Positions 1 to 5,595 of a DNA stretch of 64,000 nt are shown here, one piece after another; within the stretch, counting starts at the first letter, position 1, and every line of letters begins with the position of its first letter. Under the pieces are notes generated by a model. The model saw nothing but the letters and a program-made list of their open reading frames with translations. It had not been told where the DNA came from and did no database searches. Origin of the DNA: Bacteroidales bacterium (GTDB lineage: Bacteria; Bacteroidota; Bacteroidia; Bacteroidales; UBA12077); contig JAEINU010000001.1 of the NCBI GenBank assembly GCA_016342685.1, positions 682,001 to 746,000 of the forward strand, written 5' to 3'. The position numbers were made by a program, and so were the translations under genes.

Positions 1-3000
1 ATGTCATATTTTATATTACTTAACTGCTTTAGCTCAACTAACTTAAATTTTTCAAATGTAGTTAATATTGTATCTTTTTCTAGTTTACTAATATATCTAC
101 CGTAATCTATATTAGCCTCTAATTGTTTCATTATATAAAGTAATCGTATTTTTGTGTCACTACTTATAGAAGATTCTAGTTTCCAAATTACATCATCAAT
201 TATTTTTGATTCATTAATACTTACTTGATAATCATGTTTTTTAGCTTTTGCTAGAGCTTCTAGTGCATGATTACTAATCCAATATGACGATTCAGATGTA
301 TTCCACCATCCCCATAGTCCATCTGCATTTTGATTTTTTTCAAGTTTCTTTACTAACTTCTTAATTTGTTTTGAATCTTTCTTTTTGTTTTTCTTAAACT
401 CAAGGATAGTTTCATAAGCTAAATGTGCTTTAAGTTTTGATGCAAGTTGTTCATTACATAAGTATTTGTATCTGAACAATCTTTTTATTTCTTCTTCAAT
501 AATTTCGATTTCATCTAATCTGGCATAAAGATTAATACTACCTAATGTATCATTGAATTGTAAATCTATCGTTGTATCCGAATCAAGAACATAAAAGTTA
601 TCAAGAGTTTGTTCCAATCCCTTTTTAAACACAGGAATTTCTCTTTCTTCACCGTCAAAATAGCCATCAGTTTTTTCCAAGAAGTACTTAGCTTTTATTG
701 TATCAATATTATTTGGAATAATTTCTAATGAATCTATTATCGAGTTAATGCACATTTTCTTTTTTGAGAATATTAATGAATCATTTATTTCAAAGTTTAT
801 TGTAATAGGTATAGAATCCATGGTGTAATTTAAAGATTTACCTATTGCATATGTTGAATCTCCCTCAACTAAAAATCTAGGTAGTGTTAGTTGAGCCATC
901 AGAGGTTTATATGATTTTATATTTCTTTGTATTTGACCGGTTTGATTTTTTTCATTTATAGCAAGTACAAATGTGCTCCAATTGGTAACATCATCTGGGA
1001 ATGTTACATTAAATGATACTTTACCTTCTTCATCTGTAACAAGACTTGGTTGCCAATATGCATAATCTGAGAAATTATTTCTAATGGAGTTAGCTTGAGA
1101 TGCTGATACAAGAAATTTATGATCAAAATTAGCACCTTTTGTGTTGGTAATGAATGATTTATTTTTTGTAGTAATTAATATTACACCATTAGCTGCAAGA
1201 GAACCATATAAAGCAGTCATTGAATCATCTTTTATTACATTCATACTAGAAATTAGATCAGTGTCTAAATCTGCTGGATCACCTAAGTAAGGAACTCCAT
1301 CTATTACAAATAAAGGAGTATTAGATGCATCTATACTTTTCATTCCCCTTAAAAGAATTTTATTACTTGAATTATCATGAACTTGTATTTGAAGACCTGC
1401 TACTTTTCCTGCAAGTGCTTTCGCAGCTCGGGTGCCAGAAACCTTAGATGTTGAATAGTTTAATGATTCTCTTTTTCTACTAATTCCAAATGCAGTAACA
1501 ACAACTTGTTCCATTTCAAGTACATCTGCTTCCATGGATAAATCAATGTAATTTTGTCCATCAATAGGAACTTCAATTTTTTTCATTCCGACAAATGAAA
1601 ATTCAAGGGTTTGAGCGTTATCAGGAACGGTTAAACAATAATACCCTTCAATATCTGTAGTTGTACCGATTGTTGGATTTTCTTTCACCACAACACTTAC
1701 TCCAGGTATTGATAAACCATCTTCTGCACCTTTAACAAATCCGCATATTAAATTCAATGGTATATCTTCATTATATTCAGCGTGATATATTTTGTTTATT
1801 TTGTTTAATTCATTATAACTATTATCATAATTATTGTAGTCAGTTGTAAATATGTTTTTTATAATTACTTCACTTACATCAGAACTAAATTTGTCTTTAT
1901 CATTAATTTTTATGTTTTGAACATTATAATAATTTAAACCATTTGTTTTTACCTTAAGTGAATCTATAAGACTATATCCTGCGCCAGGATAAAAAATTAT
2001 TATTCTATAATCACCATCTTTAAGATCATGAAAATGTTTTAGGTATCCTGGATAAACTCTAATAAACAATGGATCTTTTGGATTGACAAGAAGAATATTA
2101 AGTGGAAATAAATTTTCCTTTTTAGAATATTCATATTCTACTAGAAGTTGTCCTTTCCCATCAGTAGTTGAATTTGGATTATGATATTGTGCTGTTTTAT
2201 ACCTTTTTTGGTTAACATAATTTTCCCAATCCTCTTCAAGTTTTTTTTCAGTTATTACTTCGTCTTTAAGTTCATGAATTGCAAGATGTTTGATTTGTTT
2301 AGGATATCTGAACTTCTCGCTTATGCATCTCATTTTTAATAATGTAGCCGATAGTTCATATTCATAGAATGGCTCAAATATAAAGTTGTTACTATATCCG
2401 TTTAAATGTTTAAGATTAACGTGATGTGGAGATATTGGACCAGCAAAATTATTTCCATAATGATGTTGGAAGTATATTTTGGTATTATCGTTATAGTTTA
2501 GTACGGTGATGTTATTGTTTTGCTTTAGATATGCATAGTCTTCGCCAAAGGTATTTTTGAAAGGGAAAATATATTTATATAGTGTACTTTTTTCATAATC
2601 GGTAAGTAATCGAGGCATTTTCTTAATTCTTACATTCTTCAAGTTAACCGTATCATTCAAGCTAAAAATTGTCTTTTTGTTTTTATGGAAATACATACTG
2701 TCAATTATTATTGATTTATAAGGTAACCTGAGTTCAATTTTATGATATCCACCATCAGTCTTAAAAGAATAAGGTTGATGATTTGTACTCCAGTTGAAAT
2801 ACACAGGTTTTCTATCAATATATATAACACCAATTGGTCGAATATTACCATTATGAACTACAAATGGAGAAAATTGTGTTATGGAATCAGTTGTAAAATA
2901 AGAGTAGGTATATATACTACTTCTAGGATAAAGGAATTTATAATATTCTATACTATCTATTTCTGCTAAGGTTTTCCAATTATTATAATTAATGTTTCTA

Positions 3001-5126
3001 TAAGGATTTCTTAAATTCCAATTTTGAATAGAGAATTTATTTATTTTCTCCCTTATTTTTCTTTTCTCAATTTGAACTGGTAAGCTAGGTGGAGTAAAGT
3101 TAAATTTACTAGTTAATGCAAATGCAGTTAAATCAACGTTTTGTATAGGGAAACCTGAATTGTTGGTAACCTTAATTTCTATTTTTGATTTTTGACCTGG
3201 ATAAATAAGTGTTGGTTGGTTAATTTGAATATTTAATTTTTTATCCAAATACGGAATCTCATAATCTACATCAATTACTTTTCCTCCCCATAAATATTGT
3301 ATTGAAATGTAATAATTTTTGTCTGTGTTAACTTTTTCTTTAAATTCAAATTTTTTATCTGAATGACCTCTTTTTAATTCTTTGTTAAGTTCATATATGT
3401 AGTAATTAAAAGGGATTTTTCTGTTATTCTCAATCAAAATATATACAGTATCTTTTGTACGTTCAGACAAACAATTGATTCCTGATGATTTTTTGTCAAT
3501 ATTTATAGTTTTATAAATACTGTCAACCATAATTTCATAATAAGCAAAATAAGGATTGATTTTATTTTTATATGGTAAAGAAACTTTCTTCGTATTAAAT
3601 TTATTACCAAATCCATCTATCCCACTCATAATAGCATCAGTAGATTCTTTATTTCCATTTATTTCATAAGAGAATAATATGGAATCAACTTGTAGTTCAA
3701 AGTCAATCTTTTCTGAATTATGGTAATATTTAATTGTTTTCGTTTCTTCTAGAGTTTCATTGTCTGATGTTTTTAACTTAACATTTACTTTATAGCTAAA
3801 ATTAGCTCTTGGGAATATTGAATCAGGAATTATAACTTCTGTTTCATCTGTTGCTTTCAGTTCTTTTTCTATATATAGTAATGTATCAGGGATAAATTCG
3901 TTTTCTGAAAAGTATTGGGTAGCTTTTAATCTTTCTATATAAACTTTAAAAGTAGCATCCAGTAAATTTAAATTATTTTCATCTGTACCTTTTACAAATA
4001 GTTTTAACTCATTTCCATTATAATGAACTTTTTTATTCGTTCTAAGTTGAAGTTTACTTTTTGTTAATTCATAATCCTCGTATTCAAAAGATTCTGAAAT
4101 TAAAGTGCTTCTGGATTTTATATCTTTTAAAAATATTCTATATGTTTTATCTAATTTAAGATCGAGACTGTCATGTAAATAAAATTTATGAGTATAACCA
4201 CCTTTATTATATGGCTTTATCGACGCTATTTTTACTTGGTCATCCCAATATCTATTCAAAATTACATTGACATCTTTGTCATAAGGAACCTCATTTTTGT
4301 CAAGAATATATGCTTTAAATTTAACCGTATCGCCAGGTTGGTATTTGGGTTTGTTAAATACCATATAGCCTTTATAAGAAGATGAGTAATTATAATCATT
4401 ACAATAGTAGTCATCAAAAATACAAGCTATTTTTTTAAAGGCTTTATCAAAGTAATATTTTGTTGTCCCAATAGTTTTATATGGATACCATTTTATTAAT
4501 GAAATCACACCATCTAATGGTAATCGAACTATGAATCTTACAGGTCTCCACACAAATCTAATTGGAGTCGAGTATATTACTTTTTGACCAATACGTTTAA
4601 ACTTTGAATTATTAAGTTCACGATTTATATTATAATAGGCGATTTGATCATTGTAAGTGACTTTTATCAAGCCTTTTTTATTGCTTTTTTTATGACGATA
4701 ACTTAGCGTTTTCTGATCAAACTTGAGTTTTTTTCCTTTAATTTTTACATTTGCATTGTTTACAATAGTTCCAATAGAGTCATAAACTTGGATATTTAAA
4801 TCCGAATTATTATTAAGAATTTTTACATCAAAATTTTGGATTGTTAAAATATCAAGATTTAGTTTACTGCCTTTTGTGTAAACTTTTAAATAATGACCCG
4901 GAATTAAATCAATATTAAATGAACTGTCGGTTGGTATAGAATCTACTATGGAATGAAAATATGAATCTTCAACTTTCCATAAATCGTTTTTATATAAATA
5001 TTCTGCTTCTTTGTTTGTAAGCTTGTAAATGTATGTATGATAGCTAGTTTTTCTGCTGGTTAATAAATCCTGACTATAGGATGTAATATGGAATAGGATA
5101 AATAATACTAAAAATATTTTTCTCAT
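1..5126 (-). CDS. alpha-2-macroglobulin-like protein with internal CarboxypepD_reg + TonB plug (C-terminus beyond window)
   Basis: An open frame of 1708 codons starts with ATG at 5124-5126 and runs off the left edge with no stop, so the C-terminus is missing. Residues 1-19 form a signal peptide. An MG2-type macroglobulin domain lies near residues 253-350, with further beta-rich MG-like stretches to about 1100. A CarboxypepD_reg domain follows at about 1126-1204, then a TonB-box-like segment beginning MEQVVVTAFG at 1205 and a SusC-type plug to about 1322 (ending in VILITTKN). The A2M domain comes next (YWQP near W1358, TD..G...F..PD), then a thioester motif C1557-N-E-Q1560. No TonB beta-barrel follows the plug. 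Family knowledge: bacterial A2Ms trap proteases through a bait region and a Cys-Gln thioester, and the plug module sits about where a bait region would be. The role is inferred: a periplasmic or surface protein, either a protease trap or an envelope structural protein. Domain assignment is strong; function is uncertain. Confidence 0.85.
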   Translation of the reverse strand, partial: MRKIFLVLFILFHITSYSQDLLTSRKTSYHTYIYKLTNKEAEYLYKNDLWKVEDSYFHSIVDSIPTDSSFNIDLIPGHYLKVYTKGSKLNLDILTIQNFDVKILNNNSDLNIQVYDSIGTIVNNANVKIKGKKLKFDQKTLSYRHKKSNKKGLIKVTYNDQIAYYNINRELNNSKFKRIGQKVIYSTPIRFVWRPVRFIVRLPLDGVISLIKWYPYKTIGTTKYYFDKAFKKIACIFDDYYCNDYNYSSSYKGYMVFNKPKYQPGDTVKFKAYILDKNEVPYDKDVNVILNRYWDDQVKIASIKPYNKGGYTHKFYLHDSLDLKLDKTYRIFLKDIKSRSTLISESFEYEDYELTKSKLQLRTNKKVHYNGNELKLFVKGTDENNLNLLDATFKVYIERLKATQYFSENEFIPDTLLYIEKELKATDETEVIIPDSIFPRANFSYKVNVKLKTSDNETLEETKTIKYYHNSEKIDFELQVDSILFSYEINGNKESTDAIMSGIDGFGNKFNTKKVSLPYKNKINPYFAYYEIMVDSIYKTINIDKKSSGINCLSERTKDTVYILIENNRKIPFNYYIYELNKELKRGHSDKKFEFKEKVNTDKNYYISIQYLWGGKVIDVDYEIPYLDKKLNIQINQPTLIYPGQKSKIEIKVTNNSGFPIQNVDLTAFALTSKFNFTPPSLPVQIEKRKIREKINKFSIQNWNLRNPYRNINYNNWKTLAEIDSIEYYKFLYPRSSIYTYSYFTTDSITQFSPFVVHNGNIRPIGVIYIDRKPVYFNWSTNHQPYSFKTDGGYHKIELRLPYKSIIIDSMYFHKNKKTIFSLNDTVNLKNVRIKKMPRLLTDYEKSTLYKYIFPFKNTFGEDYAYLKQNNNITVLNYNDNTKIYFQHHYGNNFAGPISPHHVNLKHLNGYSNNFIFEPFYEYELSATLLKMRCISEKFRYPKQIKHLAIHELKDEVITEKKLEEDWENYVNQKRYKTAQYHNPNSTTDGKGQLLVEYEYSKKENLFPLNILLVNPKDPLFIRVYPGYLKHFHDLKDGDYRIIIFYPGAGYSLIDSLKVKTNGLNYYNVQNIKINDKDKFSSDVSEVIIKNIFTTDYNNYDNSYNELNKINKIYHAEYNEDIPLNLICGFVKGAEDGLSIPGVSVVVKENPTIGTTTDIEGYYCLTVPDNAQTLEFSFVGMKKIEVPIDGQNYIDLSMEADVLEMEQVVVTAFGISRKRESLNYSTSKVSGTRAAKALAGKVAGLQIQVHDNSSNKILLRGMKSIDASNTPLFVIDGVPYLGDPADLDTDLISSMNVIKDDSMTALYGSLAANGVILITTKNKSFITNTKGANFDHKFLVSASQANSIRNNFSDYAYWQPSLVTDEEGKVSFNVTFPDDVTNWSTFVLAINEKNQTGQIQRNIKSYKPLMAQLTLPRFLVEGDSTYAIGKSLNYTMDSIPITINFEINDSLIFSKKKMCINSIIDSLEIIPNNIDTIKAKYFLEKTDGYFDGEEREIPVFKKGLEQTLDNFYVLDSDTTIDLQFNDTLGSINLYARLDEIEIIEEEIKRLFRYKYLCNEQLASKLKAHLAYETILEFKKNKKKDSKQIKKLVKKLEKNQNADGLWGWWNTSESSYWISNHALEALAKAKKHDYQVSINESKIIDDVIWKLESSISSDTKIRLLYIMKQLEANIDYGRYISKLEKDTILTTFEKFKLVELKQLSNIKYD

Positions 5127-5507: not shown

Positions 5508-5511
5508 TTTG

Positions 5512-5595
5512 TGCCCAGAACAAGACTCGAACTTGCACGCCCTTGCGAGCACCGGCCCCTCAAGCCGGCTTGTCTACCAATTTCAACATCTGGGC
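5512..5595 (-). tRNA. tRNA-Leu (anticodon GAG)
   Basis: Read on the minus strand this is an 84-nt class II tRNA. The acceptor arms GCCCAGA and TCTGGGC pair over 7 bp and are followed by discriminator A. The anticodon stem CCGGC/GCCGG encloses the 7-nt loop TTGAGGG, giving anticodon GAG (reads CUC/CUU). A long variable arm typical of tRNA-Leu follows. The T-arm is GCAAG-TTCGAGT-CTTGT with one G-U pair. No CCA is encoded. Confidence 0.95.

Follow-up and report, generated by a model that had tools for sequence, protein, structure and literature searches.

A SusC-type module without its barrel in the bait slot of a Bacteroidota alpha-2-macroglobulin points to a possible connection of a protease trap with the TonB system

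The window analyzed here is a 64,000-nucleotide stretch of the genome of a Bacteroidales bacterium (GCA_016342685.1, contig JAEINU010000001.1, positions 682,001 to 746,000 of the forward strand). It begins within a gene for a protein of the alpha-2-macroglobulin (A2M) superfamily that carries the N-terminal module of SusC transporters. Counted from its second ATG (MRKIFL...), the gene occupies positions 1..5126 on the minus strand, to which all features of the protein given below belong. Position 5126 was also the end assigned in an earlier sequence-only reading, whose residue numbers are lower than ours by 17. The frame continues beyond the window edge, and the 3' end missing from the window was recovered 817 bases past the window start on contig C9 of the same genome (G000). 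The full gene (G000:C9:681184-687177, minus) is a single open frame without internal stops, with 1997 codons if translation starts at the first ATG and 1980 if it starts at the second. Positions 5070..5126 encode a predicted signal peptide region (MRKIFLVLFILFHITSYSQ) of a type I-like kind lacking the lipobox cysteine, recognized from the sequence only. A crude signal pattern (a hydrophobic run ending in [ASG]Q) matched 59 of 64 full-length relatives, while a lipobox-like pattern was present in six of the 64, located, as judged by eye, ahead of the [AS]Q at which the signal ends.

The A2M part of the protein was recognized on both sides of the SusC-type module. A macroglobulin domain resembling MG2 is located at residues 269-336 (4170..4373); its Pfam MG2 score of 21.5 bits is below the cut-off of 32.8, and the stretch is conserved across the 15 alignment rows shown. 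The motif R1366-N-N-F1369 (1071..1082) of the alpha'NT strand opens the second half of the MG6 domain and aligns with human A2M from residue 732. It is followed by the A2M domain at residues 1373-1460 (798..1061; Pfam PF00207, 8e-17), a thioester domain (TED) at residues 1558-1802 in full, which is cut by the window edge (3..506), and bMG10 at residues 1885-1983 (Pfam, 4e-13). The TED_complement match of 19.7 bits is under the Pfam cut-off of 22, and the assignment is backed by our profile A1, which matches the TED of YfhM. This profile covers the A2M-to-end part, aligned from four genomes, and was restricted to the region after the plug to avoid favoring plug carriers in searches. The thioester motif C1574-N-E-Q1577 (447..458) aligns with the thioester stretch of YfhM. 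By its motifs, thioester, and alpha'NT strand, the protein is a thioester-type member of the A2M superfamily without a detectable bait-region domain.

The SusC-type module comprises three parts. The CarboxypepD_reg-like domain at residues 1144-1227 (1497..1748; Pfam PF13715 CarbopepD_reg_2, 1e-14) corresponds to the SusC N-terminal extension (NTE). The TonB box MEQVVV with the adjoining TAFG, residues 1222-1231 (1485..1514), aligns with the SusC box, and MEQVVV lies at the place matching VDEVVV of Bt1763. In this transporter, deletion of the box or its replacement with alanines is described to cause growth defects on levan (PMC7782687). The TonB plug was found at residues 1248-1332 (1182..1436; Pfam PF07715, 3e-10), with the match spanning positions 22-107 of the 107-position model, and scored 45.0 bits against a cut-off of 46.2 with the SusC signature TIGR04057. 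The NCBIfam SusC model TIGR04056 matched residues 1146-1365 (3e-56) over its positions 5-227 of 981 only, and the A2M domain comes next; therefore, no barrel follows the plug, and the protein is not a SusC transporter. A long insert, residues about 700-1140 (1758-3080), separates the module from the first MG6-like half; PEGA-like strands could be seen in it by eye (VIYIDRKPVYF...GGYHKIELR), and it gave no convincing Pfam match.

The position of the module in the A2M architecture was defined by the alpha'NT motif. Profile A1 places R1366 opposite residue 732 of human A2M (6tav), so that R-x-x-F corresponds to R732/F735. R1366, N1368, F1369, D1371, and W1375, as well as C, E, and Q of the thioester, are invariant in all 62 aligned rows. 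R732 and F735 are described as conserved alpha'NT residues that come after the bait region or, in C3, after the anaphylatoxin (ANA) domain; the strand threads a channel formed by MG2, MG3, and LNK, and its exit from this channel triggers the collapse of the molecule (PMC9352918). According to the same source, lengthening of the bait of human A2M without a break does not trigger it, since a discontinuity is required. The plug ends 27-34 residues ahead of R-x-x-F, depending on whether its end is taken from the profile or from Pfam. Since the SusC module lies directly N-terminal of this motif, it is, as judged by alignment, the occupant of the slot that holds the bait region in A2M and the anaphylatoxin domain in C3.

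Structures of two segments were predicted with AlphaFold2. In the model of the module (residues 1140-1375, 73 rows), the predicted local distance difference test score (pLDDT) was about 97 in the N-terminal domain, fell to 41-58 over the box and most of the TonB-side plug half, and rose again to 91-94 over most of the C-terminal half. The best Foldseek matches of this model were SusC N-terminal domains (9hfj, 6ytc), with the SusC chains 8aa4 and 8aa0 among the next ones, and the NTE superimposed on that of BT3090 (9hfj) with a root-mean-square deviation of 1.2 over 78 columns. The low pLDDT of the box and the TonB-side half agrees with the behavior of the isolated FepA plug, which is described as unfolded (Usher 2001, as cited in PMC11658791). 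For the larger model of residues 645-1725 (62 rows), the pLDDT was 79.9, and all 50 listed Foldseek matches were A2M or complement entries (best E-value 1e-18), with low TM-scores (0.10-0.23). The domain order proposed in the sequence-only reading, a thioester protein of the A2M family that carries the N-terminal module of SusC but no barrel, is thus confirmed by Pfam and NCBIfam, as are the presence of the CNEQ motif by the YfhM alignment and the bait-region position by R-x-x-F. For the segment taken for a plug, the C-terminal half was modeled with a pLDDT above 90, and the model matched SusC chains; the CxEQ site falls within a helical stretch of the TED type. The claim of a complete CarboxypepD_reg domain and plug held for the presence of both domains but is too strong as to the plug, for which the Pfam match is partial and the TonB-side half is of low confidence.

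A search of contigs with A1 yielded 265 matching stretches, of which 161 encoded relatives; the best 80 loci were kept, and 77 of them were informative, the other three (L043, L075, and L119) being cut before the region of interest. A SusC-built profile detected the module through to the C-terminal end of the plug in 73 of the 77, while L067 and L104 carry part of it and L100 and L107 none. The records of carriers include Mucilaginibacter, Pedobacter, Pontibacter, Ohtaekwangia, Flexithrix, Saprospiraceae, Marinilabiliales, and Bacteroides; a few are titled Clostridiales or Thalassovita, and these titles look misassigned. A1 matches at 1e-60 were found in 21 of 295 genomes of the order, the window's own included, and matches at 1e-20 in 36 of 395 genomes of the phylum, six of which (again with the window's own) score far above the rest. 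This order and phylum sample gave 25 distinct genes besides that of the window, and it partly overlaps the 77-locus set (L101 and L253, for instance, denote one gene of genome G026). The full module is present in 13 of the 25 genes (weakly in L268), and four (L125, L262, L265, and L270) keep the N-terminal domain with the plug lost or shortened. Thus, the architecture is common but not universal within this A2M family, which in turn is found in a minority of the phylum. Its recurrence in 73 of 77 loci and 13 of 25 sampled genes excludes chance and misassembly, and an assembly error joining two genes, raised as a possibility along with the sequence-only reading, was rejected. No description of the architecture was found in the open-licence literature of PubMed Central by title or beginning of the abstract. 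Two variants were recorded on the side. In L103 (Flexithrix dorotheae), two tandem CarboxypepD_reg-like copies (residues 1120-1217 and 1239-1327) precede the plug, and the M56-peptidase frames L234, L248, L239, and L245 (weakly L238) bear plug-like C-terminal halves without a barrel, three of them in the single protein of L234; plug halves thus seem to be reused in Bacteroidota.

Conservation along the module was compared between 74 A2M modules and 84 SusC modules as per-column information; since rows were not weighted for relatedness and the SusC rows were picked for likeness to A2M plugs or the window plug, the bit values given here are comparative only. The box had 3.40 bits in A2M modules and 3.38 in SusC, and the four columns after it had 3.12 and 3.34, respectively. 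The values were 2.26 versus 2.71 for the N-terminal domain, 1.24 versus 1.45 for the linker before the box, 1.98 versus 2.47 for the N-terminal half of the plug, and 2.60 versus 3.13 for its C-terminal half, so that the NTE and both plug halves are 0.45-0.53 bits lower in A2M modules. Judged by these columns, the box is the only part of the module with apparent SusC-level constraint. The strict pattern [LMI]x[EDQ][VI]3 fitted 65 of 74 A2M modules and 72 of 84 SusC modules in the alignment and 9 of the 13 full-module genes of the order and phylum sample; a looser pattern applied to raw sequences found a box in 62 of 77 loci. Seven loci keep the NTE and have lost all or part of the plug, and six of them retain a recognizable box, either strict (L067, L125, L262, and L265, the sequences among them being LDEVVV, LEEVVV, LQEVVV, and IEEVVV) or near-strict (LEEVVA in L104 and LMETVV in L270). 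Five of these six box keepers stand on separate branches of the A2M tree, L270 not being placed. The genome of the window has nine TonB_C matches above the cut-off.

In a tree of the 74 A2M plugs and 84 SusC modules, the A2M/SusC label changed 4 times, versus a mean of 52.7 (minimum 45) in 200 shuffles, and the A2M modules mostly formed one group apart from SusC. The window module is placed differently: its sisters are SusC modules from the genus of its genome (support 0.99), and its identity is 61% to a SusC of its own genome versus 45% to the nearest A2M plug. SusC sisters were also found for the A2M modules of L066 (0.949) and L113 (0.913, a SusC of its own genome). When 20 A2M plugs were compared with 1-5 SusC modules per genome, picked for A2M-plug likeness out of up to 140 matches and with L091 left out, the nearest match was another A2M plug in 15 cases, an own-genome SusC in three, and a SusC of another genome in two. 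The architecture looks ancient, and the module of the window protein appears to have been replaced from SusC genes of its genus. The protein had been described as a chimera, and a one-off fusion is rejected for the architecture, which is old and widespread; the term is kept for the modules of the window, L066, and L113, and a recent exchange is suggested only for the copy in this genome. In the congeneric genome G004, the A2M end of the gene (61% identical) lies on a 12336-base contig that ends just past the plug; a repeat in common with SusC genes may explain this break. In the A2M tree, built without L270 and the module-less L271, most members have a plug, and the module-less ones are one group of five, L107, and the pair L100/L259. 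In L107 (L107:8399-9490, +), the segment ahead of R-x-x-F gave a match to DUF6089 (7e-9) and a weak one to OMP_b-brl; this slot piece resembles an outer-membrane barrel and comes from a single contig of a metagenome-assembled genome, with possible misassembly.

The neighborhood survey covered 71 loci, 53 of which had over 3 kb of flanking sequence on each side, with 865 neighboring open reading frames and 28 examined clusters. No constant operon partner was found, as none of the 28 clusters occurred in more than 11 of the 71 loci, and no SusC-looking cluster was seen among them. The largest clusters came entirely or nearly entirely from Mucilaginibacter and near kin, and others from Cytophagales kin. 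Two clusters span distant groups: a short-chain dehydrogenase (8/71 loci), which is encoded on the opposite strand and does not look like a partner, and an ABC-ATPase-like protein, assigned by eye (6/71). A cluster with a second A2M-like protein was observed at L057, L073, L085, L094, and L111, and in the latter, the 1950-aa copy follows directly. The scanned neighbors of the window gene encode a DPPIV/S9 peptidase, a response regulator, and a radical SAM protein; a tRNA-Leu(gag) gene (5511-5595, minus) lies between the A2M gene and the upstream gene of the DPPIV-type S9 peptidase. About 4 kb downstream of the A2M gene, on the same strand, an MACPF protein is encoded (L005:8610-10136, minus; 4e-14), a complement-like neighbor of a complement-like protein; no relative of it was found among the 865 neighboring frames of the 71 loci. 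A second A2M of the genome (L004) is YfhM-like and located about 18 kb downstream; it has the bait-region domain PF07703 (6e-27), a lipobox-like start (LAFSC), and an adjoining gene for a transglycosylase/transpeptidase penicillin-binding protein (PBP).

Together, these data suggest a protease trap linked to the TonB system. As the leading candidate, although with somewhat less than an even chance, we consider a periplasmic thioester trap of the A2M type, in which a barrel-less and partly unfolded SusC module held by TonB would serve as bait. With no barrel around them, the box and the TonB-side plug half would be unfolded and form an accessible, protease-sensitive tether. By gripping the box, TonB could hold the trap at the TonB-ExbBD machinery or keep the tether under tension and exposed. 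If a periplasmic protease, foreign or stray, cut this tether, the alpha'NT strand would be released from its channel; the protein would then collapse, and the CNEQ thioester could bond the attacker covalently. That Bacteroidota employ TonB, the transmitter of the proton-motive force, to hold or arm a complement-like protease trap through the barrel-less module in the bait slot is the boldest form of this reading and a rather doubtful proposition.

Several observations weigh against such a trap. The bait-region domain PF07703 is absent among the Pfam matches of the window protein up to an E-value of 1. The strict box was missed in 9 of the 74 A2M modules, including L101 and L066, versus 12 of the 84 SusC modules, and one of the nine (L122) fails only through its cut-short segment. 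In the order and phylum sample, L253, L255, L264, and L268 do not fit the strict pattern, and L268 has no recognizable box beside the plug; L261 keeps the NTE and part of a truncated plug with a degenerate box. Seven of the 25 genes have no module by profile, although one of them (genome G050) has a CarboxypepD_reg-like stretch at the slot that is below the Pfam cut-off and has no box. Since some loci lack the box or the whole module, the trap, if it works, can dispense with the box in some lineages. The predicted TM-score (pTM) of the larger model, 0.44, leaves the packing of domains unfixed. The presumed periplasmic location follows from the type I-like signal peptide only, and TonB binding, protease cleavage, and thioester attack are likewise inferred.

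Other readings of the module account for parts of the same evidence. It could be an integrated decoy that mimics the bacterium's own SusC plugs or outer-membrane proteins and lures the proteases or bacteriocin-like invaders by which these are attacked or ridden, the TonB binding mattering only as part of the likeness. The kinship of the window and L113 modules with SusC of their own genus or genome would fit such a role, as would the barrel-like slot piece of L107 and the proteolytic loss of the plug of Bt1763 in a crystal structure determined earlier (PMC7782687). However, we regard it as unlikely, because an own-genome SusC was nearest for just 3 of the 20 plugs tested against 1-5 SusC modules per genome, on which ground refreshing of a decoy from own SusC genes was rejected as a general rule, and because loss of the plug with retention of the box does not fit plug mimicry. 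A passive spacer, in which case the bait slot would tolerate a structured insert that makes no contact with TonB, has a similarly low probability. It agrees with the seven sampled genes that do without the module, the four full-module genes of that sample without a strict box, and the plug halves in barrel-less M56-peptidase proteins, but leaves unexplained both the SusC-level conservation of a six-residue box beside variable linkers and its persistence in six of the seven loci after plug loss.

Readings that give TonB or a barrel a more direct role fare worse. The pull of TonB on the box might unfold the plug and shift alpha'NT, so that energy rather than proteolysis would fire the thioester, for example, onto envelope substrates. 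The retained box is consistent with such a force trigger, and the bond between TonB and BtuB is described as strong enough for half of the plug to be unfolded before release (Hickman 2017, as told in PMC11658791; PMC5413942). Nevertheless, pulling alone is less likely to fire the trap, because elongation of the human A2M bait without a break does not do so; in addition, pulling on the box would probably drag the strand N-terminally, opposite to the described retraction (PMC9352918), and a counter-anchor is not evident. We consider this trigger very unlikely. Even less probable is insertion of the module into a SusC barrel with a displaced plug, which would place the trap under an open pore. 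SusC was reported to be devoid of its plug when closed in vitro (PMC7782687), and several plug glycines are invariant, which would agree with docking; it is weakened by the relaxation of the plug by about 0.5 bits per column relative to SusC and by its loss or shortening in seven loci, and the neighborhood survey revealed neither a constant neighbor nor a SusC-like cluster among the 28 clusters examined. Thus, of the three roles listed in the sequence-only reading (substrate recognizer, contact with TonB/ExbBD, and docking to a separate barrel), the contact with TonB is the best supported, owing to the conservation of the box and its usual survival of plug loss, and docking came out weaker.

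Outer-membrane transporters, and bacteriocins that ride them, are known to carry TonB boxes. If the TonB-held trap is real, the conserved box in a barrel-less thioester protein would represent a new use of the TonB motor, which would then serve an envelope defense protein besides transport and tie nutrient import to envelope defense. Because the site parallels that of C3, where a folded domain occupies the slot, the family offers a bacterial test of how slot inserts control thioester proteins, and the presence of the architecture in cultured strains (e.g., Mucilaginibacter lappiensis and Ohtaekwangia koreensis) makes it directly testable.

Among known systems, M56 (BlaR1-like) peptidases share barrel-less plug halves with the window protein (30 of 51 M56 matches examined), but no A2M domains were seen in them, and their plugs are mostly halves that lack the box region, with as many as three in tandem. 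SusC/RagA transporters have the NTE, TonB box, and plug in the same order, as reflected in the TIGR04056 match; unlike them, the window protein has no beta-barrel, and its module is embedded in another protein and joined to MG6 on the C-terminal side. The type I bacterial A2Ms, E. coli YfhM/ECAM and Salmonella SaA2M, likewise possess the CxEQ thioester, A2M domain, TED, and bMG10, and the YfhM TED is the best match to A1 by sequence among solved structures. The window protein differs from the YfhM type in the lack of a lipobox, of an A2M_BRD match, and of a PBP gene among the neighbors scanned, as well as in the SusC module at the bait slot. Compared with complement C3/C5, it is the product of a bacterial gene, and its insert is a SusC NTE-box-plug unit rather than an anaphylatoxin. 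With these proteins and with human A2M, to which its A2M-domain part aligns from R732, it shares the placement of an insert, a folded ANA domain or a bait, N-terminal of the alpha'NT motif R-x-x-F.
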